A stretch of DNA of 64,000 nucleotides from Pegea sp. RAD2-039 (Eukaryota; Chordata; Thaliacea; Salpida; Salpidae). The notes beneath the pieces are model-generated. The model made no database searches. It saw only the letters and a program-made list of their open reading frames with translations, and was not told where the DNA came from. The translations under genes were made by a program, and so were the position numbers. Shown here piece after piece: positions 1,711-63,445 of this stretch (position 1 is its first letter; each line of letters opens with the position of its first letter). The stretch spans positions 1-64,000 of the forward strand of contig JAQGEQ010000267.1 in the NCBI GenBank assembly GCA_034620365.1, written 5' to 3'.

Positions 1711-1940
1711 AACAAGAATGACTAACAATTATCAGATGTTATCTACAAAAGTTAGTCAAAAAAATTGTAGGAGTTTTAGACTGAAATTCAACCGCAAAAA
1801 CGCGGTTTCCAAATTAAACACGAATTAAAAAAATGAAGTTATTCACAATTTTGTGGAGCTTTTTTCTGAGTATTATTAAAGTAAAGAAGTCTAGTGTTTG
1901 TGGCTCAGTGTTATTTTGGAATGTAAAGAAAGTTTTAAAA
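1711..1940 (-). repeat. A arm 1 (A-ii subfamily)
   Basis: On the minus strand the box CTGAGCCACAAACACTA (about 1891-1907) is followed by the hairpin AACCGC/GCGGTT (1790-1807) and the pair CTACAA...TTGTAG interleaved with GACTAAC...GTTAGTC, which could form an H-type pseudoknot. The spacer is of the A-ii kind, but its middle reads TTATTCACAATTTTG, a small variation. Confidence 0.85.
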
Positions 1941-2050
1941 CTATATCAGTAAAATATATCTAATCGTCGACGTCTTTCAGTTGTGAAAGCGTTTCTTGTC
2001 ACGTAAATGTCACGTTTCAATAAATCACTAAATTAAATCAGTTAATTAAA
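1941..2050 (-). repeat. P segment, copy 1
   Basis: This block of about 110 bases always lies outside an A-arm box. It carries ACGTCGACGA, GAAACGCTTTC and spaced CGTGACA motifs, so it is locally richer in CpG than its surroundings. Here it joins CTTCAGTAAATATTG directly, without the vWA exon segment seen in copies 4, 6, 7, 8 and 9. Confidence 0.82.
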
Positions 2051-2556
2051 CTTCAGTAAATATTGAAATTATTTTAGAAGATAGTGGAGTTTTGTTGATA
2101 AGATAAAAATAAAATTACAATTTTCAGTTGTTACAGTTGAGTGATTTCTAATAAGTTTGAATAAAACTTAAAGTTTACAAAAATGAAAATTATTTTAAAA
2201 GAAAATCTTCAAACTATTTGAAATTCAAATGTTCTTTTAGATGACTTGATAATTTAGTAGCTAAATTTTTAATTTATTATCAACTGATTTTTTCAAAAAT
2301 AAAAAACAAATGCAAAAATAAAAAAGTTGAATAAGAATAAAATATAAACAGCTTGATTATTTATACTATTGTTTAAATTAAATTACAAATATATTTTTTA
2401 TCATTGAAAGATCAATTAATAGAAGATTAAAGATTTAGTAATTAGTCTTTAAATTCTACTTAAAATTAATTTAATTAACTTTTTCAAACTTACAACTTTA
2501 TATAAACGTTTTATTCTTGTATTTTAACAATTTAATTTTTCAAATTTTAAAATCTT
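2051..2556. repeat. L2-end / D linker
   Basis: The stretch begins with the L2 end (CTTCAGTAAATATTG, GTTACAGTTGAGTGATTTC near 2130) and passes into AT-rich sequence shared only with about 49780-50340. No gene or stable reading frame is visible. Confidence 0.7.
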
Positions 2557-2975
2557 TGAACCACAAATACTAAACTTCTCTAAATTAATAAATAGTGAAA
2601 ATCAGCAGAAAGAAATGTTCTATTCCAATCAAACCATTTCAGTATTACTTCTGAAGTTAATTTTGAAACCGTTTATTGACGGTTAACTTTCCGACTAAAA
2701 ACTCTACATTTTCGACTACTTACTTCGTAGATAACTTCTGATATTTGTTAGTCATTTGTGTGAAATTAATTAAAAAATAAGTAAATAAGTTGAAATATTC
2801 GAATCTAATAAATATTAATTGTGGTTCTAAAAGTAACAAATATAAACTTTATTTTAAAAACATGGTTGTGAGTAACAACTTAAAAAGCTCTTATCGAAGC
2901 AAAAACACATCGATACTAAAGTTGCAATTGGTAGTTGCAGATGCAAATGTTTCAAAATATAAAACTAAGTAAATG
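2557..2975 (+). repeat. D arm 1
   Basis: This is one of two copies of a rare arm family. The box is GAACCACAAATACTAAAC (2557-2574) and the hairpin AACCGT-ttattg-ACGGTT is at about 2667-2684. A CTAC...GTAG stem and GACTA...TAGTC follow (about 2710-2755). The tail TTGCAATTGGTAGTTGCAG (about 2923-2942) resembles the tail of segment M. A 60-codon open frame over 2790-2972 begins at TTG and is very AT-rich, so I do not call a gene. Confidence 0.78.
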
Positions 2976-4299: not shown

Positions 4300-4630
4300 A
4301 TTTTAGATAAAACTGTTTTCACATTTTTAATAAACTGCGCCACAAACACTAAGTTTCATTATTAGTTTAAATAATACAAAAAGCTAACTAACTCCAGATT
4401 TGTAATATTTCGAACGATTCATTTGTCCAAATTTGGAAACCGTTTCTTTTACGGTTGATAATTTATCAATACTTTCTACTTATTTTAAGTAATTTTGTAG
4501 AAACTGAAGAAATAGATGGAAGGTATGTAATGCCACTACATTCTATCTGCTTGCAGATTGGGTGTGATAATAATAAATACTAGAAACTTCTCGTCTATCA
4601 ACTGCACCTGATAGTCAAAGGTGATAAAAT
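4300..4630 (+). repeat. B arm 1
   Basis: The box is GCGCCACAAACACTAAG (4338-4354). The hairpin AACCGT-ttctttt-ACGGTT (about 4438-4456) is followed by the stem TTTCTAC...GTAGAAA. The tail has CTTGCAGATTGGGTG, CTATCAACTGCACCTGATAG and GGTGATAAAATG. Hairpin and stem pairing are intact. Confidence 0.86.
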
Positions 4631-5540: not shown

Positions 5541-5770
5541 AAACTTTTTTTCACTTTTACAAAAACCACTAAGCCATAAACACTAAACTTTTTAAACTTT
5601 ATAAAACTCAGAAAAAATCTCAACGAAACCGAAATTTATTAAAGCTCCACTTTTGTAGATCGTTTTTATTTGGAAACCGCGTTATTGCGGTTGAATTTCA
5701 GTCTAAAACTCCTACAATTTTTTGACTAACTTTTGTGGATAACATCTGATAATTGTTAGTCATTCTTGTT
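5541..5770 (+). repeat. A arm 2 (A-i subfamily)
   Basis: The box is slightly altered (AAGCCATAAACACTAAAC, 5570-5587). The hairpin AACCGC-gttatt-GCGGTT has a loop change only, and the possible pseudoknot strands follow to GTTAGTC (about 5755-5761). The spacer is of the A-i kind shared with arms 4, 6 and 11. Confidence 0.84.
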
Positions 5771-7821: not shown

Positions 7822-8050
7822 AACACTTTATCACCTTTGACTATCAATTAAGTGACCTTAAATTAGTAGAAATTATTGATAGATTTTCAACCGTAAACAG
7901 GACAGTTTACAAAATGACTTTTATCAGACACCAAAAGAGAAACATCAGACAACAGCTTTTTCTGTATTTAAACAACCAATAAAGCTTAGTGTTTGTGGCT
8001 CAGTGTATTCAACAAATGTGAAAATAGTTTTCTGTAAATTTTGTTAAAAC
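7822..8050 (-). repeat. E arm 1 (tail deleted)
   Basis: On the minus strand the box is CTGAGCCACAAACACTAAG (about 7985-8003). Its hairpin differs from the rest: the outer half reads GTAAAC-tgtcct-GTTTAC just before GGTTGA, so a stem is possible with other bases. GTGATAA joins the GTAG region directly at TTAAGTGACC, meaning most of the conserved tail is missing, as in E arm 3 but not E arm 2. Confidence 0.75.
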
Positions 8051-9195: not shown

Positions 9196-9526
9196 TTTTA
9201 TCACCTTTGACTATCAGGTGCAGTTGATAGACGAGAAGTTTCTAGTATTTATTATTATCACATCCAATCTGCAAGCAGATAGAATGTAGTGGCATTATAT
9301 ACCTACCATCTATTTCTTCAGTTTCTACAAAATTATTTAAAATAAGTAGAAAGTATTGAAAAATTATCAACCGTAAAAGAAACGGTTTCCAAAATTTGGA
9401 CAAATGAATCATTCGAAACATTACAAATCTGGAGTTAGTTAGCTTTTTGCATTATTTAAACTAATAATGAAACTTAGTGTTTGTGGCGCAGTTTATTAAA
9501 AATGTGAAAACTGTTTCATCTAAAAT
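9196..9526 (-). repeat. B arm 2
   Basis: Read on the minus strand: box GCGCCACAAACACTAAG (about 9475-9491), hairpin AACCGT/ACGGTT (about 9369-9387) and the tail ending GTGATAA (9198-9204 on plus as TTATCAC). With C arm 1 it bounds an inverted-arm cassette of 2051 bp (9198-11248). Confidence 0.86.
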
Positions 9527-10803: not shown

Positions 10804-11250
10804 GATTTTTATCTGAATTTGAGCCACAAACACTAAATTTCTTTGAAATTATAAAGTCAGCAAATATTCCCATGACAACCGGAAACGTAATACTCTATTT
10901 ACTTGAAGTTATTATATTTTGGAGAACCGTTATTTACGGTTTGATTTCTATTTGTAAATTCTACTTTTTCTACAACTGCATATATTCAAATTAAAGTTGT
11001 AGACGGATGGGTAGTTCATATGAATACTTGTATTTTACACTGGCGTAAGCTTTGATTATAGTAAAAAGTAAAAATCAACAAACATTAAAATTCTAATTTA
11101 TGAATCCAAGATTTTACTTTTGCTATATTTTATTTTTGCCCCAACCAGTTAATACCCATGCATCTTTTCTGCTTGTCATTCAGTTTGATAATAATGAAGA
11201 CTAAACCTTGCTCTTCTATCAACTGCATCTGATAATCAAAAGTGATAAGG
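10804..11250 (+). repeat. C arm 1
   Basis: A good reference copy of family C. The box GAGCCACAAACACTAA (10820-10835) is followed by a spacer with ATGACAACCGGAAACG. The hairpin is AACCGT-tattt-ACGGTT (about 10925-10941). The stem CTACAAC/GTTGTAG encloses a TGAATATATTCA-like palindrome, written TGCATATATTCA in this copy. The tail has CTATCAACTGCATCTGATAATC and GTGATAA (11242-11248). Confidence 0.87.
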
Positions 11251-12340
11251 ACTTTTAAAACAAATCTCAACAAATATTTGCATCTGAAATTTTAACAGCT
11301 TCTAAAATATTGTTTAAAAAATTGTCATAAAAAATTTGTTCAACATTTTATATATAAATAAGTTTTTTATAAAATAGGAATATTTGTTGATAAAAATTGT
11401 AATTAAAAGCTAAATCTAGAATATTTTTAAAACATTAACATTAAAACAGTTTCAAAAATAAATTGAAATAATTAAAAATTATATCTAATTATCTGTTTAC
11501 AAAAATAAAGCGCTAGTTCTATCAAATTAGATTTTACTTATTTCATAAAACAGACTATTTGTAAGATTTTGAAAATGATTCGAATTTATTTGCAAAAAGT
11601 AAAATCAAAAGTAAAAAACTTTGATTCATAAATGAAATGTTTATTATTTCTATAAAATTGAAAATTTCATTTCAACTTTTCAAAAAATATTCAAGCATAA
11701 CAACTGAAAAGTTCATTTTATTTTTGTTATCAGCAATTCTCTGCAATTTCCAAATATCAATTCAAAATTTAGTTTATTTCCAAAACTAGAAATTGTCATT
11801 CAAACAACTCATTAAAATTAAAAAAATTCTAAAAAATAATCTATTTATTGGCTAATTATCTAAAAGTAACTATTACCTAATAAACAAATAAAGGAAATTG
11901 ATTTTTCATCTAATATTAAAATTAAAGATCACATTTCTATCAAATTATTCAAACTTATTAGAAATCACTCAACTGTAACAACTGAAAATTGTAATTTTAT
12001 TTTTATCTTATCAACAAATCTCCACTATCTTCTAAAATAAATTCAATATTTACTGAAGTTTGAAGGACATGTAACAAATCGATATTAACTTCTCTCACAA
12101 AGCAATCTTTTGCTTAGTGGTTGAAGATGCTGATGACTCTTCTGCTTCTAGCACAATCACTTGTAATCACTCTTTGACTGATAACATCAAGTTAATAAAA
12201 TTTGAAACACAAAAATTAAGTTCCAAAGTATTTTTTTATAACTCTTTAATAAAGAGAAATTTCACTTTCAACAAAACTATTTTTTAAACAACTAATCTAA
12301 GAAAACTTAATCTTAATTTAAAAATGTATTTATTTAAAAA
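11251..12340 (+). repeat. L2 segment, copy 1
   Basis: L2 joins a C arm tail to an A arm box. Conserved islands are AACAACTGAAAAGTTCATTTT (near 11700), TTAGAAATCACTCAACTGTAAC (near 11960), TCCACTATCTTCT, and TTGCTTAGTGGTTGAAGATGCTGATG (about 12110-12135). No P or vWA segment here. Confidence 0.83.
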
Positions 12341-12555
12341 GTTTTAAAACTTTTTTCACGTTTAAAAATAACACTGAGCCACAAACACTAAACTTTTTTA
12401 CTTTATTAATACTCAGAAAAAAGATTAAAAAAATTGTGAATGCCTTCATTTTTTTAATTCGTGTTTAATTTGGAAACCGCGTTTTTGCGGTTGAATTTCA
12501 GTCTAAAACTCCTACAATTTTAGATAACATCTGATAATTGCTTGTCATTCTTGTT
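12341..12555 (+). repeat. A arm 3 (A-ii, pseudoknot strand deleted)
   Basis: The box CTGAGCCACAAACACTAAAC (12374-12393) and hairpin AACCGC-gttttt-GCGGTT are intact. Right after CCTACAATTTT the TTGACTAACTTTTG stretch is missing, so the interleaved GACTAAC strand is gone. A arm 10 has the same deletion. Confidence 0.85.
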
Positions 12556-14351: not shown

Positions 14352-14580
14352 AACAAGAATGACTAACAATTATCAAATGTTATCTACAAAAGTTAGTCAA
14401 AAAATTGTAGGAGTTTTAGACTGAAATTCAACCGCAAAATGCGGTCTCCAAATAAAAACGATCTAAAAAAGTGGAGATTTAATAAATTTCGTTAATGTTG
14501 AGATTTTTTCTGAGTTTTATAAAGTATAAAAAGTTTATTGTTTGTGGCTCTGGGTTACTTTTAAATGTGAAAAAAGTTTT
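14352..14580 (-). repeat. A arm 4 (A-i subfamily)
   Basis: Minus-strand arm. The hairpin reads GACCGC-atttt-GCGGTT, where the A-to-G change keeps a G-T pair. The box is CAGAGCCACAAACAATAAAC (about 14535-14553), with CCCAGAG instead of CACTGAG on its outer side. Confidence 0.84.
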
Positions 14581-15478: not shown

Positions 15479-15928
15479 CCTTATCACTTTTGATTATCAG
15501 ATGCAGTTGATAGAAGAGCAAGGTTTAGTCTTCATTATTATCAAACTGAATTGACAAGCAGAAAAGATGCATGGGTATTAACTGGTTGGGGCAAAAATAA
15601 AATATAGCAAAAGTAAAATCTTGGATTCATAAATTAGAATTTTAATGTTTGTTGATTTTTACTTTTTACTATAATCAAAGCTTACGCCAGTGTAAAATAC
15701 AAGTATTCATATGAAATACCCATCCGTCTACAACTTTAATTTGAATATATTCAGTTGTAGAAAAAGTAGAATTTACAAATAGAAATCAAACCGTAAATAA
15801 CGATTCTCCAAAATATAATAACTTCAAGTAAATAGAGTATTACGTTTCCGGTTGTCATGGGAATATTTGCTGACTTTATAATTTCAAAGAAATTTAGTGT
15901 TTGTGGCTCAAATTCAGATAAAAATCAT
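15479..15928 (-). repeat. C arm 2
   Basis: Minus-strand C arm. TTATCAC at 15481 starts its tail. The hairpin is AATCGT-tattt-ACGGTT (about 15788-15807), where C-to-T leaves a T-G pair, so pairing is preserved. With B arm 3 it bounds an 1828-bp cassette. Confidence 0.86.
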
Positions 15929-16980: not shown

Positions 16981-17311
16981 ATTTTAGATAAAACTGTTTT
17001 CACCTTTTTAATAAAATGCGCCACAAACACTAAGTTTCATTATTAGTTTAAATAATGCAAAAAGCTAACTAAATCCGAATTTGTAATGTTTCGAATGATT
17101 CATTTGTCTAAATTTGGAAACCGTTTCTTTTACGGTTGATAATTTATCAATACTTTCTACTTATTTTAAATAATTTTGTAGAAACTGAAGAAATAGATGG
17201 AAGGTATATAATGCCACTACATTCTATCTGCTTGCAGATTGGGTGTGAAAATAATAAATACTAGAAACTTCTCGTCTATCAACTGCACCTGATAGTCAAA
17301 GGTGATAAAAT
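16981..17311 (+). repeat. B arm 3
   Basis: The box GCGCCACAAACACTAAG is at 17019-17035. The hairpin AACCGT/ACGGTT (about 17119-17138) and the TTTCTAC/GTAGAAA stem are intact, and GTGATAA is at 17302-17308. It mirrors B arm 2 across the palindrome centred near 13.4 kb. Confidence 0.86.
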
Positions 17312-18471: not shown

Positions 18472-18905
18472 ATTTGAGCCTCAAACACTAAATTTCTTTG
18501 AAATTATAAAGTCAGCAAATATTCCCATGACAACCGGAAACGTAATACTCTATTTACTTGAAGTTATTATATTTTGGAGAACCGTTATTTACGGTTTGAT
18601 TTCTATTTGTAAATTCTACTTTTTCTACAACTGAATATATTCAAATTAAAGTTGTAGACGGATGGGTACTTCATATGAATACTTGTATTTTACACTGGTG
18701 GAAGCTTTGATTATAGTAAAAAGTAAAAATCAACAAACACTAAAATTCTAATTTATGAATCCAAGATTTTACTTTTGCTATAGTTTATTTTTGCCCTAAC
18801 CAGTTAATACCCATGCATCTTTTCTGCTTGTCAATTCAGTTTGATAATAATGAAGACTAAACCTTGCTCTTCTATCAACTGCATCTGATAATAGAAAGTG
18901 ATAAA
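18472..18905 (+). repeat. C arm 3
   Basis: The box is altered to GAGCCTCAAACACTAA (18477-18492). The hairpin AACCGT-tattt-ACGGTT, the CTACAAC/GTTGTAG stem and the GATAATAGAAAGTGATAA tail are present. It follows W rather than L1, so it is not part of a facing-box cassette. Confidence 0.85.
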
Positions 18906-19974: not shown

Positions 19975-20375
19975 AAAACCCTTTTCACATTTAAAAATAA
20001 CACTGAGCCACAAATACTAAACTTTTTTAAATTATTAATAATCAGAAGAAACTCAACAAAATTGTGATCCCCTTCATTTTTTTAATAGTTGATTAATTTG
20101 GAGACCGCATTTTTGCGGTTGAATTTAAGTCTACAACTTCTACAATTGTTGACTAACTTTTTATTTACGGTTGAAAATCTATAAATAAATTCTACTAATT
20201 TTGAATAATTGTGTAGATGTTAAACAACAGATGCAAGATGTTTTATGCCAATGCATTCTATCTACTTGCAAAAATTGGGTTTAATAATAATGAAAAGTAA
20301 AAACTTCTTCTTTATCATCTGCACTTGATAGTCAAAGCTGATAAAGTCTTCTGAAAACAAAATTTAACAAATTAA
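19975..20375 (+). repeat. A arm 5 / E arm 4 chimera
   Basis: The first half is a normal A-ii arm with box CTGAGCCACAAATACTAAAC (20003-20022) and hairpin GACCGC-attttt-GCGGTT (about 20103-20120). At about 20160, inside the GACTAACTTTT motif, it switches to the hairpin half of an E arm (TTTACGGTTGAAAATC) and continues with the full E tail, CTGCACTTGATAGTC and CTGATAA. It therefore has two CGGTTGA motifs. Comparison with E arm 2 places the join. Confidence 0.8.
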
Positions 20376-22596: not shown

Positions 22597-22826
22597 AACA
22601 AGAATGACTAACAATTATCAGATGTTATCTACAAAAGTTAGTCAAAAATTGTAGGAGTTTTAGACTGAAATTCAACCGCAAAAACGCGGTTTCCAAATAA
22701 ACACGAACTACAAAAGTGGAGCTTTAATAATTTTCGTTTTTGTTGAGATTTTTTCTGAGCTTTATAAAGTTTAAAAAGTTTAGTGTTTGTGGCTCAGTGG
22801 TTTTTGTAAATGTGAAAAAAGTTTTA
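22597..22826 (-). repeat. A arm 6 (A-i subfamily)
   Basis: Clean minus-strand A arm: box CTGAGCCACAAACACTAAAC (about 22779-22798), hairpin AACCGC/GCGGTT (about 22674-22691), and both interleaved pairs CTACAA/TTGTAG and GACTAAC/GTTAGTC. Confidence 0.86.
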
Positions 22827-23731: not shown

Positions 23732-24062
23732 ATTTTATCACCTTTGACTATCAGGTGCAGTTGATAGACGAGAAGTTTCTAGTATTTATTATTATCACAC
23801 CCAATCTGCAAGCAGATAGAATGTAGTGGCATTATATACCTTCCATCTATTTCTTCAGTTTCTACAAAATTACTTAAAATAAGTAGAAAGTATTGATAAA
23901 TTATCAACCGTAAAAGAAACGGTTTCCAAATTTGGACAAATGAATCATTCGAAACATTAAGAATCTGGAGTTAGTTAGCTTTTTGTATTATTTAAACTAA
24001 TAATGAAACTTAGTGTTTGTGGCACAGTTTATTAAAAATGTGAAAACAGTTTTATCTAAAAT
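23732..24062 (-). repeat. B arm 4
   Basis: Minus-strand arm with box GTGCCACAAACACTAAG (about 24009-24025) and intact hairpin (about 23906-23925). TTATCAC at 23735 and the GTGATAA of C arm 4 bound a 2045-bp cassette. Confidence 0.86.
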
Positions 24063-25333: not shown

Positions 25334-25781
25334 TGATTTTTATCTGAATTTGAGCCACAAACACTAAATTTCTTTGAAATTATAAAGTCAGCAAATATTC
25401 CCATGACAACCGGAAACGTAATACTCTATTTACTTGAAGTTATTATATTTTGGAGAACCGTTATTTACGGTTTGATTTCTATTTGTAAATTCTACTTTTT
25501 CTACAACTGAATATATTCAAATTAAAGTTGTAGACGGATGGGTACTTCATATGAATACTTGTATTTTACACTGGCGTAAGCTTTGATTATAGTAAAAAGT
25601 AAAAATCAACAAACATTAAAATTTTAATTTATGAATCCAAGATTTTACTTTTGTTATATTTTATTTTTGCCCCAACCAGTTAATACCCATGCATCTTTTC
25701 TGCTTGTCATTCAGTTTGATAATAATGAAGACTAAACCTTGCTCTTCTATCAACTGCATCTGATAATCAAAAGTGATAAGG
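25334..25781 (+). repeat. C arm 4
   Basis: Box GAGCCACAAACACTAA (about 25352-25367), spacer with ATGACAACCGGAAACG, and hairpin AACCGT-tattt-ACGGTT (about 25456-25472). The CTACAAC/GTTGTAG stem encloses TGAATATATTCA. GTGATAA at 25773-25779. Confidence 0.87.
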
Positions 25782-26672: not shown

Positions 26673-26912
26673 GTTTTAAAACGTTCTTCACATTTAAAAA
26701 TAACACTGAGCCACAAACACTAAACTTTTTTACTTTAATAATATTCAGAAAAAGTTCTGTAAATATTGAAACCTATTCTAAGTTTCTTCTCCCAACCTTT
26801 TTTATTGTTAATTTGGAAACCGCGTTTTTGCGGTTGAATTTCAGTCTAAAACTCCTACAAGTTTTTGACTAACTTTTGTAGATAACATCTGATAATTGTT
26901 AGTCATTCTTGT
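26673..26912 (+). repeat. A arm 7 (A-iii subfamily)
   Basis: Box CTGAGCCACAAACACTAAAC (26706-26725). The long spacer with TTCTTCTCCCAACC defines A-iii and is shared with arms 9 and 12. Hairpin AACCGC-gttttt-GCGGTT (26818-26836). Confidence 0.86.
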
Positions 26913-28702: not shown

Positions 28703-28938
28703 TAACAAGAATGACTAACAATTATCAGATGTTATCTACAAAAGTTAGTCAAAAAAATGTAGGAGTTTTAGACTGAAATTCAACCGCAAAAACGCGGTTT
28801 CCAAATATCAATAAAAAGGTTAGATGTAGAAAACAATGTGCTTCATTATTTACAGAACTTTTTCTGAATATTATTAAATTAAAATAGTTTAGTGTTTGTG
28901 GCTCTGGGTTACTTTTAAATGTGAAAAAAGTTTTAAAA
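28703..28938 (-). repeat. A arm 8 (A-iii-like)
   Basis: Minus-strand arm with normal hairpin (about 28781-28799) and box CAGAGCCACAAACACTAAAC. Its spacer (AAAAGGTTAGATGTAGAAAAC on plus) is a distinct variant nearest to A-iii. Confidence 0.84.
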
Positions 28939-30166: not shown

Positions 30167-30500
30167 TTTTATCACCTTTGACTATTAGGTGCAGTTGATA
30201 GACGAGAAGTTTCTAGTATTTATTATTATCACACCCAATCTGCAAGCAGATAGAATGTAGTGGCATTATATACCTTCCATCTATTTCTTCAGTTTCTACA
30301 AAATTTTTTAAAATAAGTAGAAAGTATTGATAAATTATCAACCGTAAAAGAAACGGTTTCCAAAATTTGGACAAATGAATCATTCGAAACATTAAGAATC
30401 TGGAGTTAGTTAGCTTTTTGTATTATTTAAACTAATAATGAAACTTAGTGTTTGTGGTGCAGTTTATTAAAAATGTGAAAACAGTTTTATCTAAAATTTT
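30167..30500 (-). repeat. B arm 5
   Basis: Minus-strand B arm: TTATCAC at 30169-30175, hairpin about 30339-30358, and box CTGCACCACAAACACTAAG (about 30443-30462). First member of a 2065-bp facing-box cassette ending at 32233. Confidence 0.86.
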
Positions 30501-31787: not shown

Positions 31788-32234
31788 GATTTTTATCTGA
31801 ATTTGAGCCACAAACACTAAATTTCTTTGAAATTATAAACTCACCAAATATTCCCATGACAACCGGAAACGTAATACTCTATTTATTTGAATTTATTATA
31901 TTTTGGAGAATCGTTATTTACGGTTTGATTCCTATTTGTAAATTCTACTTTTTCTACAACTGAATATATTCAAATTAAAGTTATAGACGGATGGGTAGTT
32001 CATATGAATACTTGTATTTTACACTGGCGTAAGCTTTGATTATAGTAAAAAGTAAAAATCAACAAACATTAAAATTCTAATTTACGAATCCAAGATTTTA
32101 CTTTTGCTATATTTTATTTTTGCCCCAACCAGTTAATACCCATACATCTTTTCAGCTTGTCAATTCAGTTTGATAATAATGAAGACTAAACCTTGCTCTT
32201 CTATCAACTGCATCTGATAATCAAAAGTGATAAA
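31788..32234 (+). repeat. C arm 5
   Basis: Box GAGCCACAAACACTAA (31806-31821). The hairpin is AATCGT-tattt-ACGGTT, again the T-G tolerated form. CTACAAC...GTTATAG is weakened by one mismatch. GTGATAA at 32227-32233. Confidence 0.86.
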
Positions 32235-33130: not shown

Positions 33131-33370
33131 TTTTAAAACTTTTTTCACATTTAAAAGTAACCCAGAGCCACAAACACTAAGCTTTTTTACTTTAATAATA
33201 CTCAGAAAAAGTTCTGTAAATATTGAAACATATTCTAAGTTTCTTCTCCCAACCTTTTTTATTGTTAATTTGGAAACCGCGTTTTTGCGGTTGAATTTCA
33301 GTCTAAAACTCCTACATTTTGTTGATCAACTTTTGTAGATAACATCTGATAATTGTTAGTCATTCTTGTA
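33131..33370 (+). repeat. A arm 9 (A-iii subfamily)
   Basis: Box CAGAGCCACAAACACTAAG (33165-33183), A-iii spacer, hairpin AACCGC-gttttt-GCGGTT (about 33275-33293). The interleaved strand reads TTGATCAACTTTTG instead of TTGACTAACTTTTG, which would weaken pairing with GTTAGTC. Confidence 0.85.
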
Positions 33371-35142: not shown

Positions 35143-35355
35143 AACAAGAATGACAAGCAATTATCAGATGTTATCTAAAATTGTAGGAGTTTTAGACTTA
35201 AATTCAACCGCAAAAACGCGGTTTCCAAATTAAACACGAATTAAAAAAATGAAGGCATTCACAATTTTTTTAATCTTTTTTCTGAGTATTATTAAAGTAA
35301 AAAAGTTTAGTGTTTGTGGCTCTGGGTTACCTTTAAATGTGAAAAAAGTTTTAAA
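35143..35355 (-). repeat. A arm 10 (A-ii, pseudoknot strand deleted)
   Basis: Shares with A arm 3 the loss of the GACTAAC stretch (ATCTAAAATTGTAGG on plus, about 35173-35187) and the GACAAGC variant. The hairpin is intact (about 35206-35223). The box has CAGAGCC on its outer side. Confidence 0.85.
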
Positions 35356-36765: not shown

Positions 36766-37215
36766 CCTTATCACTTTTGATTATCAGATGCAGTTGATAG
36801 AAGAACAAGGTTTAGTCTTCATTATTATCAAACTGAATTGACAAGCAGAAAAGATGCATGGTTATTAACTGGTTGGGGCAAAAATAAAATATAGCAAAAG
36901 TAAAATCTTGGATTCATAAATTAGAATTTTAATGTTTGTTGATTTTTACTTTTTACTATAATCAAAGCTTACACCAGTGTAAAATACAAGTATTCATATG
37001 AAGTACCCATCCGTCTACAACTTTAATTTGAATATATTCATTTGTAGAAACAGTAGAATTTACAAATAGAAATCAAACCGTAAATAACGGTTCTCCAAAA
37101 TATAATAACTTCAAGTAAATAGAGTATTACATTTCCGGTTGTCATGGGAATATTTGCTGACTTTATAATTTCAAAGAAATTTAGTGTTTGTGGCTCAAAT
37201 TCAGATAAAAATCAT
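36766..37215 (-). repeat. C arm 6
   Basis: TTATCAC at 36768, hairpin AACCGT-tattt-ACGGTT (about 37075-37094), box GAGCCACAAACACTAA (about 37181-37196, minus). It is the counterpart of C arm 4 at the outer edge of the 5.6-kb inverted duplication. Confidence 0.86.
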
Positions 37216-38480: not shown

Positions 38481-38810
38481 ATTTTAGATAAAACTGTTTT
38501 CACATTTTTAATAAACTGCGCCACAAACACTAAGTTTCATTATTAGTTTAAATAATGCAAAAAGCTAACTAAATCCAGATTCTTAATGTTTCGAAAGATT
38601 CATTTGTCCAAATTTGGAAACCGTTTCTTTTACGGTTGATAATTTATCAATACTTTCTACTTATTTTAAATAATTTTGTAGAAACTGAAAAATTGATTGA
38701 AGGTATATAATGCCACTACATTCTATCTGCTTGCAGATTGGGTGTGATAATAATAAATACTAGAAACTTCTCGTCTATCAACTGCACCTGATAGTCAAAG
38801 GTAATAAAAT
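38481..38810 (+). repeat. B arm 6
   Basis: Box GCGCCACAAACACTAAG (38518-38534), hairpin AACCGT/ACGGTT (about 38618-38637). The terminal motif is GTAATAA (38801-38807) instead of GTGATAA. It bounds a 2040-bp cassette with C arm 6. Confidence 0.86.
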
Positions 38811-39720: not shown

Positions 39721-39948
39721 ACTTTTTTCACATTTACAGAAACCACTGAGCCACAAACACTAAACTTTTTAAACTTTATAAAACTCAGAAAAATCTCAAC
39801 AAAAACGAAATTTATTAAAGCTGCATTTTTTTAGTTCGTGTTTATTTGGAAACCGCGTTTTTGCGGTTGAATTTCAGTCTAAAACTCCTACAATTTTTTG
39901 ACTAACTTTTGTAGATAACATCTGATAATTGTTAGTCATTATTGTTAA
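39721..39948 (+). repeat. A arm 11 (A-i subfamily)
   Basis: Box CTGAGCCACAAACACTAAAC (39746-39765), hairpin AACCGC-gttttt-GCGGTT (about 39851-39869), and both interleaved pairs present up to GTTAGTC. Confidence 0.86.
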
Positions 39949-42192: not shown

Positions 42193-42535
42193 ACTTTATC
42201 AGCTTTGACTATCAAGTGCATTTGATAAAGAAGAAGTTTTTACTTTTCATTATTATTAAACCCAATTTTTGCAAGTAGATAGAATGCATTGGCATAAAAC
42301 ATCTTGCATCCGTTGTTTGACATCTACACAATTCTTCAAAATTAGTAGAAAATATTGATAGATTTTCAACTGTAATTAGGAAGGTTTTAAAAATAGATAT
42401 AATCAGAAAATGTTAAGTGATACAAAAGACATCAGCTTTTTGCACTATTTAAACAACCAATGAAGCTTAGTGTTTGTGGCTCAGTGTATTCAACAAATGT
42501 GAAAATAGTTTTCTGTAAATTTTGTTAAAACAGTG
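42193..42535 (-). repeat. E arm 2 (full length)
   Basis: The only complete E arm. The tail has TTATCAGCTTTGAC, then TGCATTTGATAAAG, GTAGATAGAATGCATTGGC, a GTGTAGATG stem and the decayed hairpin CTTCCTAATTACAG (about 42371-42384). The box is CTGAGCCACAAACACTAAGC (42464-42483). E arms 1 and 3 are this with the tail removed. Confidence 0.77.
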
Positions 42536-43675: not shown

Positions 43676-44007
43676 ATTTTATCACCTTTGACTATCAGGT
43701 GCAGTTGATAGACGAGAAGTTTCTAGTATTTATTATTATCACACCCAATCTGCAAGCAGTTAGAATGTAGTGGCATTATATACCTTCCATCTATTTCTTC
43801 AGTTTCTACAAAATTATTTAAAATAAGTAGAAAGTATTGATAAATTATCAACTGTAAAAGAAACGGTTTCCAAATTTGGACAAATGAATCATTCGAAACA
43901 TTACAAATCTGGAGTTAGTTAGCTTTTTGTATTATTTAAACTTATAATGAAACTTAGTGTTTGTGGCGCAGTTTATTAAAAATGTGAAAACTGTTTTATC
44001 TAAAATG
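43676..44007 (-). repeat. B arm 7
   Basis: TTATCAC at 43679. The hairpin half reads AACTGT on plus, so one C-A mismatch breaks the 6-bp stem, the only B arm with that. Box GCGCCACAAACACTAAG. It starts a 1814-bp cassette. Confidence 0.85.
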
Positions 44008-45047: not shown

Positions 45048-45493
45048 GATTTTTATCTGAATTTGAGCCACAAACACTAAATTTCTTTGAAATTATAAAG
45101 TCAGCAAATATTCCCATGACAACCGGAAACGTAATACTCTATTTACTTGAAGTTATTATATTTTGGAGAACCGTTATTTACGGTTTGATTTCTATTTGTA
45201 AATTCCACTTTTCTACAACTGAATATATTCAAATTAAAGTTGTAGACGGATGGGTAGTTCATATGAATACTTGTATTTTACACTGGCGTAAGCTTTGATT
45301 ATAGTAAAAAGTGAAAATCAACAAACATTAAAATTCTAATTTATGAATCAAAGATTTTACTTTTGCTATATTTTATTTTTGCCCCAACCAGTTAATACCC
45401 ATGCATCTTTTCTGCTTGTCAATTCAGTTTGATAATAATGAAGACTAAACCTTGCTCTTCTATCAACTGCATCTGATAATCAAAAGTGATAAC
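45048..45493 (+). repeat. C arm 7
   Basis: Box GAGCCACAAACACTAA (45066-45081), hairpin AACCGT-tattt-ACGGTT, CTACAAC/GTTGTAG stem, GTGATAA 45486-45492. A 60-codon frame over 45116-45298 runs through the hairpin and is not conserved in other C arms, so it is rejected as a gene. Confidence 0.86.
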
Positions 45494-46904: not shown

Positions 46905-47140
46905 AAACGTTCTTCACATTTAAAAGTAACCCAGAGCCACAAACACTAAACTTTTTTACTTTAATAATACTCAGAAAAAGTTCCGTAAATATTGAAACAT
47001 ATTCTAAGTTTCTTCTCCCAACCTTTTTTATTGTTAATTTGGAAACCGCGTTTTTGCGGTTGAATTTTAGTCTAGAACTCCTACAATTTTTTTGACTAAC
47101 TTTTGTAGATAACATCTGATAATTGTTAGTCATTCTTGTT
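46905..47140 (+). repeat. A arm 12 (A-iii subfamily)
   Basis: Box CAGAGCCACAAACACTAAAC (46933-46952), A-iii spacer, hairpin AACCGC-gttttt-GCGGTT (47044-47062), GACTAAC/GTTAGTC present. An 81-codon minus-strand frame (46888-47133) merely runs through this arm, and no equivalent stays open in the other A arms. Confidence 0.86.
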
Positions 47141-48932: not shown

Positions 48933-49164
48933 TAACAAGAATGACTAACAATGATCAGATGTTATCTACAAAAGTTAGTCAAAAAAAATTGTAGGAGTTT
49001 TAGACTGAAATTCAACCGCAAAAACGCGGTTTCCAAATTAAACACGAATTAAAAAAATGAAGGTATTCACAATTTTTTTAATCTTTTTTCTGAGTATTAT
49101 TAAAGTAAAGAAGTCTAGTGTTTGTGGCTCAGTGTTATTTTGGAATGTAAAGAAAGTTTTAAAA
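48933..49164 (-). repeat. A arm 13 (A-ii subfamily)
   Basis: Nearest to A arm 1: both have TAGTGTTTGTGGCTCAGTG then TTATTTTGGAATGTAAAG. Hairpin about 49014-49031. Confidence 0.85.
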
Positions 49165-50340: not shown

Positions 50341-50790
50341 ATTTTTCAAATTTTAAAATCTTTGAACCACAAATACTAAACTTATCTAAATTAATAAATA
50401 GTGAAAATCAGCAGAAAGAAATGTTCTATTCCAATCAAACCATTTCAGTAATATTTCTAAAGTTAATTTTGAAACCGTTTATTGACGGTTAAATTTCCGA
50501 CTAAAAACTCTACATTTTCGACTACTTACTTCGTAGATAACTTCTGATATTTGTAAGTCATTTGTGTAAAATTAATTAAAAATTACGTAAATAAGTTGAA
50601 ATATTCGAATATAATAAATATTAATTGTGTTTCTAAAAATAACAAATATAAACTTTATTTTAAAAACATGGTTGTTAGTAACAACTTAAAAAGCTCTTAT
50701 AGGAAGCAAAAACACATCGATATTAAAGTTGCAATTGGTAGTTGCAGATGCAAATGTTTCAAAATATAAAACTAAGTAAATGTTGAATCT
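50341..50790 (+). repeat. D arm 2
   Basis: Second D arm: box GAACCACAAATACTAAAC (50364-50381), hairpin AACCGT-ttattg-ACGGTT (about 50473-50490), CTAC...GTAG, and the TTGCAATTGGTAGTTGCAG tail. The 60-codon frame of D arm 1 is broken here, supporting its rejection. Confidence 0.78.
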
Positions 50791-51888: not shown

Positions 51889-52217
51889 TTTAGATAAAAC
51901 TGTTTTCACATTTTTAATAAACTGCGCCACAAACACTAAGTTTCATTATTAGTTTAAATAATACAAAAAGCTAACTAGTTCCAGATTTGTAATGTTTCGA
52001 ATGATTCATTTGTCCAAATTTGGAAACCGTTTCTTTTACGGTTGATAATTTATCAATACTTTCTACTTATTTTAAATAATTTTGTAGAAACTGAAGAAAT
52101 AGATGGAAGGTATATAATGTCACTACATTCTATCTGCTTGCAGATTGGTTGTGATAATAATAAATACTAGAAACTTCTCGTCTATCAACTGCACCTGATA
52201 GTCAAAGGTGATAAAAT
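51889..52217 (+). repeat. B arm 8
   Basis: Box GCGCCACAAACACTAAG (51924-51940), hairpin about 52025-52042. The tail has GCAGATTGGTTGTGATAA (one change) and GGTGATAAAATG. Confidence 0.86.
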
Positions 52218-53124: not shown

Positions 53125-53837
53125 AAAACTTTTTTTCACGTTTACAAAAACCACTGAGCCACAAACAATAAACTTTTTAAACTTAATAATACTCAGAAAA
53201 ATCTCAACAAAAACCTCAAATAGAATAATTTTATACAAATACAATAATTATATAAATAATTTGGAAATTTTATTTGGTAACACTTTGTAAAAACCTAAAA
53301 CAATAATGAGAAACATAATTTGGAAATATTATTTGGTAACACTTTGTAAAAAACTAAATAAATATTAAGAAACATAATTTGGAAATATTGTTTGGTAACA
53401 CTGGGTAAAAAACTAAATAAATAATAAGAAACATAATTTGGAAATATTGTTTGGTAACACTTTGTAAAAAACTAAATAAATAATAAGAAACATAATTTGG
53501 AAATATTGTTTGGTAACACTGGGTAAAAAACTAAATAAATAATAAGAAACATAATTTGTGAATATTGTTTGGTAACTCTTTGTAAAAAACTAAATAAATA
53601 ATGAGAAACATAATTTGGAAATATTATTTGGCAACACTTTGTAAAAAACTAAATAAATAATGAGAAACATAATTTGGAAATATTGTTTGGTAACACTGGG
53701 TAAAAAACTAAATAAATAATCCAATCTTTTTTATAAATTGGAAACAGCGTTTTTGCGGTTGAATTTCAGTCTAAAACTCCTACAATTTTTTGAATAACTT
53801 TTGTAGATAACATCTGATAATTGTTATTCATTCTTGT
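53125..53837 (+). repeat. A arm 14, split by tandem array
   Basis: The box side (CTGAGCCACAAACAATAAAC, 53154-53173) ends at about 53221, and the hairpin side starts after 53720. The hairpin is damaged (AACAGC-gttttt-GCGGTT). TTGAATAACTTTTG and GTTATTC show a paired change relative to GACTAAC/GTTAGTC: GAATAAC and GTTATTC remain complementary. Confidence 0.82.
53222..53720 (+). repeat. 59-bp tandem array, about 8.4 units
   Basis: CACTTTG or CACTGGG recurs at 53281, 53340, 53399, 53458, 53517, 53576, 53635 and 53694, spaced by exactly 59 bases, with one more partial unit before. Units share AACATAATTTGGAAATATTG and TTTGGTAACAC. TTTG and GGG forms partly alternate, hinting at a dimer of 118. Not seen elsewhere in the window. 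Confidence 0.95.
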
Positions 53838-54049: not shown

Positions 54050-54483
54050 AATTTTGAGCCACAAACACTAAAGTTTTTTGAAATTATAAAGTTAGCAAAT
54101 ATACCTAAATTGACACAAAAGCAAAAATCTTTCATATAAGTTTGAAAATTTTGGAGAATCGTTATTTACGGTTTGATTTCTATTTGTAAATTCTACTTTT
54201 TCTACAACTGAATATATTCAAATTAAAGTTGTAGACGGATGGTACTTCATGTGAATACTTGTATTTTACACTGGCGTAAGCTTTGATTATAGTAAAAAGT
54301 AAAAATCAACAAACATTAAAATTCTAATTTATGAATCCAAGATTTTACTTTTGCTATATTTTATTTTTGCCCAAACCAGTTAATACCCATGCATCTTTTC
54401 TGCTTGTCAATTCAGTTTGATAATAATGAAGACTAAACCTTGCTCTTCTATCAACTGCATCTGATAATCAAAAGTGATAAGGA
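54050..54483 (+). repeat. C arm 8 (variant spacer)
   Basis: Box GAGCCACAAACACTAA (54057-54072). The spacer departs from other C arms (ATACCTAAATTGACACAAAA replaces CCCATGACAACCGG). Hairpin AATCGT-tattt-ACGGTT with the T-G form. The tail is normal and ends GTGATAA. Confidence 0.84.
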
Positions 54484-56931: not shown

Positions 56932-57170
56932 ACACTTTATCACCTTTGACTATCAATTAAGTGACCTTAAATTAGTAGAAATTATTGATAGATTTTCAAC
57001 CGTAATTAGGAAGGTTTTCAAACTGGATATAATCAGAAAATGTTAAGTGATACAACAGACATCAGCTTTTTCGGTATTTAAACAACCAATGAAGCTTAGT
57101 ATTTGTGGCTCAGTGTATTCAACAAATGTGAAAATAGTTTTTTGTAAATTTTGTTAAAAGAGTGAATACT
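56932..57170 (-). repeat. E arm 3 (tail deleted)
   Basis: Same deletion join TATCAATTAAGTGACC as E arm 1, so the two are from one duplication. The hairpin side reads CAACCGTAATTAGGAAGG as in E arm 2, not the GTAAAC/GTTTAC form of E arm 1. Box CTGAGCCACAAATACTAAGC. Confidence 0.75.
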
Positions 57171-58305: not shown

Positions 58306-58635
58306 TTTTATCACCTTTGACTATCAGGTGCAGTTGATAGACGAGAAGTTTCTAGTATTTATTATTATCACACCCAATCTGCAAGCAGATAGAATGTAGT
58401 GGCATTATATACCTTCCATCTATTTCTTCAGTTTCTACACAATTATTTAAAATAAGTAGAAAGTATTGATAAATTATCAACCGTAAAAGAAACGGTTTCC
58501 AAATTTGGACAAATGAATCATTCGAAACATTACAAATCTAGAGTTAGTTAGCTTTTTGCATTATTTAAACTAATAATGAAACTTAGTGTTTGTGGCGCAG
58601 TTTATTAAAAATGTGAAAACAGTTTTATCTAAAAT
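58306..58635 (-). repeat. B arm 9
   Basis: Complete minus-strand B arm, TTATCAC at 58308, hairpin about 58478-58498, box GCGCCACAAACACTAAG. The 1-kb L1 that should follow is almost wholly missing. Confidence 0.86.
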
Positions 58636-59047
58636 TTTGTTAAAAAACTGAATTCATTTTATTTTATGAAATTATTTTACATATTTTGTTCGTAAAATTA
58701 ATTTTTCAAAGGAAATATGTAAAATAATTAATAATAAGTAATTTAATAAGTAAAATCTTGGATTCATTAATTAGAATTTTAATGTTTGTTGATTTTCACT
58801 TTTTACTATAATCAAAGCTTACGCCAGTGTAAAATACAAGTATTCATATGAACTACCCATCCGTCTACAACTTTAATTTGAATATATTCAGTTGTAGAAA
58901 AAGTAGAATTTACAAATAGAAATCAAACCGTAAATAACGGTTCTCCAAAAGAATTAACCAATAATGATATAAAGGGTGTTAAGTTGTCATTGGAATATTT
59001 GCTGACTTTATAATTTCAAAGAACTTTAGTCTTTGTGGCTCAAATTA
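58636..59047 (-). repeat. L1 remnant joined to truncated C arm 9
   Basis: About 100 bases of L1 end near 58740, where AATTTAATAAG meets GTAAAATCTTGG from the middle of a minus-strand C arm. C arm 9 lacks its GTGATAA tail. Its hairpin AACCGT/ACGGTT (about 58925-58943) is intact, the spacer is altered (AATTAACCAATAATG), and the box reads GAGCCACAAAGACTAA. Confidence 0.8.
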
Positions 59048-59892: not shown

Positions 59893-60120
59893 TAACAAGA
59901 ATGACAAACAATTATCAGATGTTATCTACAAAAGTTAGTCAAAAAAATGTAGGAGTTTCAGACTTAAGATCAACCGCAAAAACGCGGTTTCCAAATTAAA
60001 CACGAATTAAAAAAATGAAGGTATTCACAATTTTGTTAATCTTTTTTCTGAATATTATTAAAGTAAAAAAGTTTAGTGTTTGTGGCTCAGTGTTATTTTT
60101 AAATGTGAAGAAAGTTTTAC
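59893..60120 (-). repeat. A arm 15 (A-ii subfamily)
   Basis: Hairpin AACCGC/GCGGTT (about 59971-59989). The following strand is GACTTAAGATC, a change after the hairpin. Box CTGAGCCACAAACACTAAAC. Confidence 0.85.
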
Positions 60121-60232: not shown

Positions 60233-60453
60233 TTGGTGATCAGTTGTCGTAACACAAATCCTTTCCAGTAAGGTCTCCTTGCCCAATATATTCAAGATGT
60301 TTAATTGCTTTTGTGACTTCTTCTTTTGTAGTATAAGTGTTAAAATCAAATATAATGTGTACTTCTTTTGAGTATCTAGCTAATCCAATCTATAAACTTT
60401 CTTCTTAGCCAACAAATATTTTGTGAAAAGGTTCTAAGTACTCAATTGTTAAA
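60233..60453 (-). pseudogene. vWA-domain exon fragment, copy 5
   Basis: Open 49-codon frame (60389 to 60240, minus) with TATAG before it and the same TGA. One replacement, AIKHLEY for AIKDLEY (plus AAGATG for AAGATC), and a silent change (CCT for TTT at the lysine codon). GQGDLTGKDL as in copies 1 and 2. Next to P copy 9 and a partial L2. Confidence 0.74.
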
Positions 60454-60690
60454 ACTTTTTAAATAAATAACTTTTTTAAATTAAGATAAAGTTTTCTTAG
60501 ATTAGTTGTTTAAAAAAGTTTTGTTGAAAGTCAAATTTCTTTTTATTTAAGAGTTTTAAAAAATACTTTGGAACTTAAGTTTTGTGTTTCAAATTTAATT
60601 AACTTGATGTTATCAGTCAAAGAGTGTTTACAAGTGATTGTGCTAGAAGGAGAAGAGTCATCAGCATCTTCAACCACTAACGATTGCTTT
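60454..60690 (-). repeat. L2 fragment
   Basis: The island part of L2 only (GCTAGAAGGAGAAGAGTC, CAACCACTAACGATTGC). It breaks off at about 60690. Confidence 0.75.
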
Positions 60691-61579
60691 ATTTGCGGAC
60701 TTTATAATTTCAAAGAATTTCGTTTTGTTGACTAACTTTTTTAGATTGAATTGGATAACCGTTACTCTTTCTTGTCAAATTTAATAAATAATCGGCTATT
60801 TGACTCTAATTCAAATCTTTGGATTTAAAAAAGATCTTTAAGATTGAAAACTAAAACTTTTCATCACTCAATCCGTGAGCTTCCTTAGCCGATGATGTCA
60901 AAAAAGGACATTAATTATTTGAAACAAATCCGCACAACAAACATTAACAACTTGAAAAGAATACAAAACTCTTTAGAATAGAAGTAAACATACAAATTAC
61001 AGAAGTTCTTCATTAACCATTTTCATGTATCCTTATCAACTTTTCAAATTATTTCGAAAACTTAAAAAAAATGAATTTTTTATTTTCAGAAATATGTTTT
61101 TAAATATTTTACGTGAATTAACTTTGTATAAACGAATGAAGATTTTCTAAACATTTAACAAAGTTTAGCATAGATAGTTTTACAATTTTAATACACTGAA
61201 CCACAAACTCTATTATAATTCAAAGTTAAAACAACTCGTAACTGATCATTATTAGATTGTAAAATCATTTATGTTTTAAAAAGGTCTTCAACCTTTACTA
61301 CTTGATGTAATCTTAATTAACTTATTATTAATTATTACTTCATCAACCATAACTACCAAGTACAACTATTACAAATTTTAAGTGATATAAATGAATTGTA
61401 TCACAGAAATGTTAAAAATAAGATTTCTAATTTGACTTATCAGCTGATTATTTCGTAATATTTCAGTAATATAATGTTTAAATCAAAAAACTAAATATTA
61501 CTCGATTCAAAAAGTTAATAAATTTTGTTTTGAAAAACAATCTTCTAACTCGACTATCCATTGAAATTTTTGGTGACGA
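60691..61579 (+). repeat. Old, diverged arm and S1-like stretch
   Basis: The first 40 bases resemble the C-arm box side (GGACTTTATAATTTCAAAGAA). Then TTGACTAACTTTTTTAGA...TTGACTCTAATTCAAAT follows the A tail order, and CAATCCGTGAGCTTCCTTAGCC to CATTTTCATGTATCC follows the start of S1 with many changes. At 61192-61212 CACTGAACCACAAACTCTA is a recognisable box. The rest to 61579 shows no match I can see and no gene. Confidence 0.6.
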
Positions 61580-61850
61580 TTTTACTTTTTACTATAATCA
61601 AAGCTTACGCCAGTGTAAAATACAAGTATTCATATGAAGTACCCATCCGTCTACAACTTTAATTTGAATATATTCAGTTGTAGAAAAAGTAGAATTTACA
61701 AATAGAAATCAAACCGTAAATAACGGTTCTCCAAAATATAATAACTTCAAGTAAATAGAGTATTACGTTTCCGGTTGTCATGGGAATATTTGCTGACTTT
61801 ATAATTTCAAAGAAATTTAGTGTTTGTGGCTCAAATTCAGATAAAAATCA
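61580..61850 (-). repeat. C arm 10 (tail missing)
   Basis: Starts abruptly inside the C arm at TTTACTTTTTACTATAATC. Hairpin AACCGT/ACGGTT (about 61713-61732), CTACAAC/GTTGTAG stem and box GAGCCACAAACACTAA (about 61818-61833, minus) are intact. Confidence 0.85.
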
Positions 61851-63114
61851 TCTAACTTAGAGTACTTTGGTTAATAAATAAACAAATATCAAATCGATAT
61901 AAACTTTTCTTGAAAAGATATGAATAAATTTAAATGGTAATATGAAGTTTCAGATTCAAAAATTTTTATAATAATTTTAAAGAAAAGAGAAATATTTTAA
62001 TTTCAAAAATTTCAATTCCTAAAGATTTTGAGAAATGGATATGAATTAGATGAACAAATTCTGAAAAGATAATTTATGTGATGCTCATACTTTAAATCTT
62101 TATAAATTTTTTAGCTTTTAGATTTTCAGGTCTTTCAGAAAATTAATCAAATATAAAAAAATTTGCAAAAAAAGATTACATTTTATGAAAACAGAAATTT
62201 CTGAAATTTATTTTCAACTTTTTCTGCAGTTTTTTAACTATTTCCAAAAATTTGTTTTCTATAAAAACTTATTTTTGTAATTTCATAATAAAACAAAATT
62301 TTTATTTTTGCGAAATTATATTTTCAAAAACTCTTTGGAAATAATTTCAGATTAAAATATTTACTAAACAAAAATAATTTTAATTTTAATCTATTTTTTC
62401 AATTAACAACAATTCGATAGAAAAAAGTAGAAGCTTTAAATATTTAGTGAAAAAAAATCAGAATTTCAAATATTCTATTTTTAATATTTAATATTTTAGA
62501 TATTCTGTAAATTAAAAAATACCTTTTAAAAGTAAACTCAAAGAAAAATTAAATATTAATGATATTAAAATGTTTGTGATGTAAAAACAACAGATATTTA
62601 TCTGTAGTGGTGTTCAATGTATTTTTAAACATGTTTGTTTTAAACATAAAATATTTCTGCTAATATATAAATAAAAAAATTGTTTATTATTTTTATCATA
62701 TAAATTTACATGAAGTATTTAAAAAAATCTTTTTTAAAAAAAAGACAATAAATTTGTTCAAGAATTTAAAAAATATTCAAAAATTATATTTGACCAAAAC
62801 AAAAACAAAATTTTAAAAAGTTCGTATTTAACGAAATTATTGAGTTTTCGGCAATCTATTCAACTTATTTAAATAAAATGTTTAATTTTAGTTTAATTTT
62901 TGAAAAGATTCTTTGATAGGACATTTAGCTTTCAGTGTTTAAACTTTCTAGAACCAAAATTATTTTAAAATAATTATAAAAGTAAAACTAAATAAATTTC
63001 AATTAAATGTAGAAAAATTTAAAAAATCACTTCAAATTTAAAAAATTAATTTTTTAAACAAAATATGTAAAACAATTTTATAATAAAAAAAATGGAATTC
63101 AGTTTTTTAACAAA
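61851..63114 (-). repeat. L1 segment, copy 9
   Basis: Full-length form, with a short deletion at its C side (GAAAAGATATGAATAAATTT). ACAGATATTTATCTGT at 62590-62605. GGCAATCTATTCAAC near 62850. Confidence 0.84.
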
Positions 63115-63445
63115 ATTTTAGATAAAACTGTTTTCACATTTTTAATAAACTGCACCACAAACACTAAGTTTCATTATTAGTTTAAATAATGCATAAAGCT
63201 ATCTAACTCCAGATTTGTAATGTTTCGAATGATTCATTTGTCCAAATTTGGAAACCGTTTCTTTTACGGTTGATAATTTATCAATACTTTCTACTTATTT
63301 TAAATAATTTTGTAGAAACTGAAGAAATAGATGGAAGGTATATAATGCCACTACATTCTATCTGCTTGCAGATTGGGTGTGATAATAGTAAATACTAGAA
63401 ACTTCTCGTCTATCAACTGCACCTGATAGTCAAAGGTGATAAAAT
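63115..63445 (+). repeat. B arm 10
   Basis: Box CTGCACCACAAACACTAAG (63150-63168), hairpin AACCGT-ttctttt-ACGGTT (about 63252-63271), TTTCTAC/GTAGAAA stem, tail with GTGATAA at about 63437-63443. Confidence 0.86.

Follow-up and report, generated by a model that had tools for sequence, protein, structure and literature searches.

Arrays of putative snRNA-type genes with variable 5′ parts in the genome of a Pegea species

The window analyzed here is a 64,000-nucleotide stretch, bases 1 to 64000 of a 115,703-bp contig (JAQGEQ010000267.1; C188) in the genome of Pegea sp. RAD2-039, a eukaryotic assembly of 105.7 Mb in 387 contigs. It is occupied by copies of a short repeat unit in which a 16-base box is followed by an AACCG...CGGTT hairpin. 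With up to 3 mismatches allowed, the two strands of the window held 42 box matches compared to a mean of 0.48 in shuffled sequences, so the many diverged copies of one module that a first-pass annotation of this DNA had described are real. The joint occurrence of box and hairpin that it had also described was found in 39 of the 42 cases, with the hairpin ∼95 to 110 nt downstream of the box start; no hairpin was found after the boxes at 18728, 53156, and 61198. Hairpins of this type numbered 61 with both strands counted, compared to 1.05 per mononucleotide-shuffled window, and all 30 listed without an upstream box were antisense readings of units. The 39 units fell into five families of 15, 10, 10, 2, and 2 members, which have in common the box, an Sm-type site, and the hairpin, and differ in the remaining sequence. 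No open reading frame of 150 or more amino acids was present in the window, and a tRNA scan returned none.

The repeats extend well beyond the window. Boxes on C188 range from 1891 to 113870, and the exact 16-base box was found 47 times genome-wide, 40 times on C188, six times on the 18.5-kb contig C224, and once on the 471-kb contig C107. The same repeats are present on C224 and in the first 3606 bp of C107, and for each of the two the 40 top alignments listed match C188 at 91 to 98% identity. These three regions together hold 90 box matches, 85 of which belong to the five families (31, 23, 21, 7, and 3 units); the other five (18728, 53156, 61198, and 69447 on C188 and 9954 on C224) are partial or unrelated. 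Families 0 and 3 are in part mosaics, and units 105293, 108602, and 42467, in which the promoter and the RNA part are like those of family 3, were chained into family 0 in the clustering via mosaic units. Over much of the window the boxes are ordered - - + +, and large inverted repeats are found within its first 16 kb. A single genome was analyzed, and parts of its array may have been collapsed or wrongly assembled. Prokaryote contigs yielded 30 stretches with the 16-mer, each with a single match, which were judged to be due to chance.

The box is, on its sequence and position, the proximal sequence element (PSE) of the small nuclear RNA (snRNA)-type promoters of this genome and lies outside any RNA, which is the central result of the analysis. 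Rfam models for U2 and U6 gave 19 and 15 gene matches, respectively, and 12 loci of each were read. In all 12 U2 genes the box or a variant of it (3 to 5 mismatches to the 16-mer) starts 59 or 60 nt before the RNA, and a TATA-like run lies in the interval. The box or a variant with 3 to 5 mismatches was also found at -60 to -66 in 11 of the 12 U6 loci; the remaining locus lacks the box, and its 5′ end is altered. The 13-base core of the box, CCACAAACACTAA, has 251 exact matches genome-wide compared to 7 for the reversed control. Eighteen dispersed core sites were fetched, and 8 of these lie 58 to 64 nt upstream of Rfam-matched genes for U1 (four), U3 (three), and RNase MRP (one, at 51.5 bits with a cutoff of 50). 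The remaining 10 (L083 and nine others among L082 to L099) had no Rfam match up to an E value of 1. It is the presence of the box or a variant at a matching upstream distance in U1, U2, U3, U6, and RNase MRP genes that identifies it as the PSE.

Two side observations concern these dispersed sites. L083 combines a PSE with a TATA-like run, is GC-richer downstream, and is possibly a new snRNA-type gene. The four U1 genes (L094, L095, L096, and L097) all begin ACTTACTTGGCAG, with T at the position of a C in ACTTACCTGG, which we take to be the usual U1 start; pairing at 5′ splice sites would thus be altered.

The anatomy of the array units downstream of the PSE is that of an snRNA-type gene. A TATA-like run, identified with a permissive pattern, follows the PSE in all 39 window units, and it lies ∼28 to 30 nt after the box start, a U2-like spacing, compared to ∼36 nt in U6 genes as judged by eye. 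In 36 of the 39 units an Sm-type site (ATTTGG, ATTTTGG, or ATTTTGA) immediately precedes the hairpin on its 5′ side. The pattern was unmatched in units 7986, 42467, and 57096 within the stretch scanned, which covered unit offsets 90 to 125 only, a limit that affects 7986 and 42467. The PSE-TATA spacing and the run of T's in the Sm-type site suggest that the units would be transcribed by RNA polymerase II (Pol II), and by analogy with the U1, U2, and U3 genes, the RNA is predicted to start near 60 nt after the box start. From this point to the end of the hairpin it would be 53 to 68 nt long, with a 5′ part of 28 to 43 nt before the Sm-type site in the window units. The sequence 3′ of the hairpin resembles by eye the downstream stretch, or 3′ box, of U2 genes; that downstream of U1 genes differs. 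The units are likely Sm-class, snRNA-type genes, with predicted products of roughly 53 to 70 nt that would bind Sm proteins, and the window probably sits within a chromosomal array of such genes.

This anatomy redraws the noncoding RNA family proposed in the first-pass annotation, in which a structured RNA ran from the box through the hairpin and a CTAC...GTAG stem to a GTGATAA tail. The units very probably do form a noncoding RNA family, though for other reasons (the PSE and the Sm-site anatomy) and with other boundaries, because the box is the PSE and the predicted RNA reaches from about 60 nt after the box start to just past the hairpin, which leaves the CTAC stem and the tail downstream of it. 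The latter two are also not shared by all units in the form stated. Five of the 39 units (5571, 7986, 12376, 35307, and 57096) had no match to a CTAC...GTAG pattern, and among family units only those of families 2 and 3 have the GTGATAA tail 340 nt or less from the box.

The window units, each delimited from the PSE to the end of the 3′ hairpin and recognized by box match, family clustering, and hairpin, lie as follows. Family 0 is represented on the plus strand at 5571 to 5692, 12376 to 12492, 20005 to 20120 (a mosaic unit), 26708 to 26835, 33165 to 33292, 39748 to 39868, and 46934 to 47061 and on the minus strand at 1790 to 1906, 14430 to 14550, 22674 to 22795, 28782 to 28904, 35206 to 35322 (unit 35307), 49014 to 49130, and 59972 to 60088; unit 42467 (42368 to 42482, minus strand), which clustered with this family, has two broken stem pairs. 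Family 1 units are at 10821 to 10941, 18476 to 18596, 25352 to 25472, 31805 to 31925, 45065 to 45185, and 54056 to 54173 on the plus strand and at 15789 to 15909, 37076 to 37196, 58926 to 59041, and 61712 to 61832 on the minus strand. In the first of these, the predicted PSE is at 10821 to 10836, the RNA would start near 10881 on U2 spacing, and the hairpin extends to 10941. Family 2 units occupy 4337 to 4456, 17018 to 17137, 38518 to 38637, 51924 to 52043, and 63152 to 63271 on the plus strand and 9369 to 9489, 23906 to 24025, 30340 to 30460, 43850 to 43969 (one stem pair broken), and 58479 to 58598 on the minus strand. The two family 3 units, 7986 (7889 to 8001) and 57096 (56998 to 57111; one stem pair broken), are on the minus strand, and the two family 4 units (2558 to 2684 and 50364 to 50490) are on the plus strand.

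A PSE-like box without an RNA part is located at 53156 to 53171 on the plus strand and is followed by ∼8 copies of a 59-bp tandem repeat (53156 to 53720); it may be a truncated or invaded unit, and a similar box is found at C224 position 9954. The window also contains, at 12075 to 12204, a piece of ∼124 bp that is ∼78 to 82% like a 113-bp tandem satellite of C284, C132, C40, C207, C73, and other contigs. On C107, the array ends at position 3606 and gives way to unique sequence (L047, 3600 to 7000). Past this point lies a minus-strand exon that matches PDB chains of cytosolic carboxypeptidase-like protein 5 (AGBL5; E value, 3.5e-35), with a Pfam M14 match only below the cutoff, and beyond the exon is a tandem repeat of roughly 110 bp, as judged by eye. 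Telomere-type TTAGGG repeats gave 86 matches; such repeats are present on C108, C125, C139, and C342, and on C108 and C125 they lie right at the contig start. Neither the exact nematode SL1 sequence nor COX1 gave a match. PF01060 and PF01484 were likewise unmatched, as were the controls, which makes these two zeros uninformative.

Within some families the sequence between box and hairpin is strongly variable, a feature absent from the first-pass annotation. A 1300-column profile of family 3 dips most deeply between the predicted RNA start and the Sm-type site. Averaged over pairs of units with close flanks, and with gaps counted, the distance in the 5′ part of family 3 was 0.32, compared to 0.035 in the upstream and 0.029 in the downstream flank (18 pairs), and the corresponding values for family 0 were 0.23, 0.041, and 0.037 (30 pairs). 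The differences were smaller in family 1 (0.099 versus 0.039 and 0.041; 48 pairs, of which 22 had identical 5′ parts and 8 had 5′ parts more than 15% different), family 2 (0.062 versus 0.042 and 0.046; 19 pairs), and family 4 (0.048 versus 0.032 and 0.034; 3 pairs). When only substitutions were counted, in 33 disjoint nearest-flank pairs with flanks less than 8% different, 86 of 1102 positions (7.8%) differed in the 5′ part compared to 363 of 16389 (2.2%) in the flanks, a 3.5-fold excess (Fisher P = 6.8e-21). The P values for families 0 to 4 (4e-16, 0.012, 0.0081, 3.3e-7, and 0.52, respectively) show that families 0 and 3 drive the effect, which is weak in families 1 and 2 and absent in family 4. 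In the same pairs, 44 of 1484 positions differed in the promoter stretch and 37 of 888 in the Sm site and hairpin; the PSE (7/480) and the TATA stretch (3/270) changed somewhat less than the flanks. In folding, the 5′ parts show no advantage over dinucleotide-shuffled sequence (mean z, -0.04; 55 distinct segments).

The same design recurs elsewhere in the genome. Contig C102 (250.8 kb) carries a second array with the same plan and a different hairpin, of which 45 units were read from at least 69 core sites listed there. In each, the PSE is followed in turn by a TATA-like run, a conserved stretch, the 5′ part, an Sm-type site, for the most part of the AATTTTTGG type, and a hairpin, which in most units is GTTGAACAAGTTTCAAC. 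The 5′ parts are 23 to 38 nt long and differ in sequence and length, with a median nearest-neighbor edit distance of 0.12 (range, 0 to 0.41). They differed at 90 of 564 positions (16%) compared to 94 of 1310 (7.2%) just downstream (P = 1.6e-8; 22 disjoint pairs), and their folding was again like that of dinucleotide shuffles (mean z, +0.07; 45 segments). The 17-mer GTTGAACAAGTTTCAAC has 209 exact sites in the genome and none in the control, and C23, C92, C96, and C102 are among the places listed. On C92 (650 kb) it occurs 40 times, 37 of them on the minus strand, at a spacing of one to tens of kilobases. In all 20 stretches fetched from C92 (L142 to L155 and L161), C96 (L160), and C23 (L156 to L159), the hairpin is preceded by a T-rich Sm-type site, and a variant PSE was seen by eye in most of them and in none of L142, L143, and L160. 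Contig C247 also holds units of the C102 type, with a damaged Sm-type site in one of the two fetched.

We propose that SNAPc presumably binds the PSE and that Pol II would make a short, capped RNA starting near 60 nt after the box start. Sm proteins would bind the site before the hairpin, and the Sm core and hairpin would stabilize a scaffold. The working end would be the 5′ segment, which is unstructured and diverges fast, and it would pair with other RNAs. It is quite plausible, if short of probable, that the arrays thus encode a repertoire of small ribonucleoproteins (RNPs) with different targets, because Sm-class RNAs that act by pairing are known (U7, HSUR1, and HSUR2, along with the LU snRNA, for which pairing is proposed). 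The most far-reaching form of this idea is rather unlikely as a whole, namely, that several arrays hold a few hundred genes of the snRNA type with the same promoter, Sm site, and hairpin as a constant chassis, that in many of them selection maintains the diversity of a hypervariable 5′ guide, and that they constitute a new RNA-guided system. Sm-class RNAs are usually regarded as a small conserved set. If the proposal were true, this lineage would have made the small nuclear RNP (snRNP) the basis of a repertoire system whose chassis is fixed and whose 5′ end changes fast, and it would be a second case, besides nematode PIWI-interacting RNAs (piRNAs), of snRNA-type transcription serving variable small RNAs. 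A literature search, which had most subscription journals outside its reach, turned up no description of such a design.

Several results weigh against this proposal or the anatomy on which it builds. Box matches with 5 mismatches are weak when taken alone and gain their weight from the fixed distance, and the TATA-like pattern is a permissive one in DNA that is ∼77% A+T. Rfam gave no match at the gathering cutoff over the window, and thus no known family, and its 7 matches up to an E value of 5 on 7 unit-bearing loci were nowhere near a gathering score. Broken stem pairs are present in 9 of the 85 units. In close pairs (30 of the 33 disjoint pairs), the stem (13 of 360 positions) and the Sm site (7 of 240) changed no less than the flanks, which gives no support for present purifying selection on single copies. 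The 5′ part varies little in families 2 and 4 (P = 0.0081 and 0.52) and weakly in family 1 (P = 0.012), and in several C92 units it is, by eye, much less variable and contains a small palindrome such as ACCTGAAATTCAGGT. A target search with 37 5′ segments against the genome, which was of low sensitivity and in which 40 of 82 candidates were scored, matched only array sites. Duplex energies of 5′ segments with U1, U2, U3, and U6 lay near those of shuffles in eight set-by-target tests; the largest shift, for C102 segments with U3, was -12.78 versus -12.15 (standard deviation of means, 0.27; ∼2.3 standard deviations).

Many of these observations would also fit the main rival explanation, that the units are indeed snRNA-type genes in which the 5′ part is simply unconstrained and without targets, in redundant or decaying copies or through transcription-linked mutation or conversion from diverged copies. 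We consider this a serious possibility, though not a probable one. The stems and Sm sites that change as fast as the flanks in close pairs, the broken stems, the mosaic make-up of families 0 and 3, the weak or absent effect in families 1, 2, and 4, and the lack of targets in the searches and duplex tests all speak for it. However, the distal flanks should themselves be near neutral, yet the 5′ segment diverges 3.5 times faster, the promoter and downstream sequence stay alike, and the plan recurs on C102 with another hairpin.

It is improbable that the units give rise to precursors of other small RNAs, whether spliced leaders or guides resembling piRNAs that would be released from the 5′ end. 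The 5′ segments of ∼23 to 43 nt do begin near the predicted transcription start, and nematode piRNA promoters evolved from SNAPc motifs, as one study reports (PMC6436959). For piRNA-like guides, however, an Sm-type site and a hairpin would presumably be superfluous, and several 5′ segments lack the GT donor of a spliced leader (e.g., C188:94362 on the minus strand, L108, and L140). Spliced leader RNA was therefore rejected as a candidate, as a 5′ exon ending at GT before the Sm site is not a general feature of the units.

Still less probable is a foldback or satellite repeat in which the hairpins act at the DNA level and any transcription is incidental. The large inverted units and the - - + + order of boxes over much of the contig are in line with such an origin, which nevertheless leaves unexplained why a PSE-like box occurs with a hairpin and an Sm-type site at matching distances and why the variability of family 3 is deepest exactly at the predicted 5′ part of the RNA.

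The pairing argument for an RNA fared poorly. As had been reported, most members of one family have C-G as the sixth hairpin pair, and nearly all others have T-A. Among the 14 stem forms of the 85 units this is the only pair changed on both sides, and the stem lends covariation no support beyond this pair. The 12 nonstandard forms hold 14 changes, of which 5 keep the pair (all as wobbles) and 9 break it. Five of the nine transitions keep pairing, where chance would give 1/2, and all five transversions break it; chance over all changes is 1/6. The pairing-preserving changes listed in the first-pass annotation are of a type that does occur, but it had omitted those that break pairing, and its suggestion that pairing is under selection did not hold up. 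Counted by unit, where related copies are not independent, 60 stems are perfect, 16 have a wobble, and 9 have a broken pair. Despite the single two-sided pair and this preponderance of wobbles, a structured RNA reaching from the box through the hairpin, CTAC stem, and tail and kept by selection on pairing is scarcely credible, given that the box is the PSE of U1, U2, U3, U6, and RNase MRP genes, that 9 of the 14 changes break pairing, and that the CTAC stem and tail are not common to all units in that form. The case for an RNA instead comes from the promoter and Sm-site anatomy.

The closest known counterparts of the array units are the U1 and U2 genes of the same genome, which have the PSE at -58 to -60 and an Sm-type site with a 3′ hairpin; by eye, the units also resemble the U2 genes in the TATA spacing and in the 3′ box stretch. 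The array units differ in being far shorter, in forming large arrays, and in having a 5′ part that is unconserved among the copies of some families. U7 snRNA has an Sm-type site and then one hairpin, and its 5′ end pairs with the target. The predicted array RNAs are like U7 in being very short and in the succession of Sm-type site and hairpin, but they have no Rfam U7 match and a 5′ end that is not constant. U7 was rejected as an identity for them, as its model gave no match in the window at the gathering cutoff or on the 7 loci up to an E value of 5. The U7 lengths given in one report are 71 nt in Drosophila and 63 nt in humans (PMC4053861). The same source describes the Drosophila LU (Like-U) snRNA, an extra Sm-class RNA with proposed pairing to U6, which resembles the array RNAs in its snRNA-type promoter, Sm site, stem loops, and lineage-restricted distribution but, as presented there, is not an array (PMC4053861). 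HSUR1 and HSUR2 of Herpesvirus saimiri are reported to be Sm-class RNAs that act by pairing with microRNAs or mRNAs (PMC13158664, PMC6763288, PMC9226524). Unlike the array RNAs, they are viral and few and do not form arrays with variable 5′ ends.

The nematode 21U-RNA loci provide the remaining comparison. Their primary transcript is ∼28 nt and is not known to have an Sm-type site or hairpin. They resemble the array units in being clustered short Pol II units with an snRNA-related promoter and a variable 5′ product (PMC6436959). The promoter of the array units differs in being the snRNA PSE itself. In its logic, the proposed repertoire of Sm-RNP guides would compare with piRNA clusters, with snRNPs as its basis.

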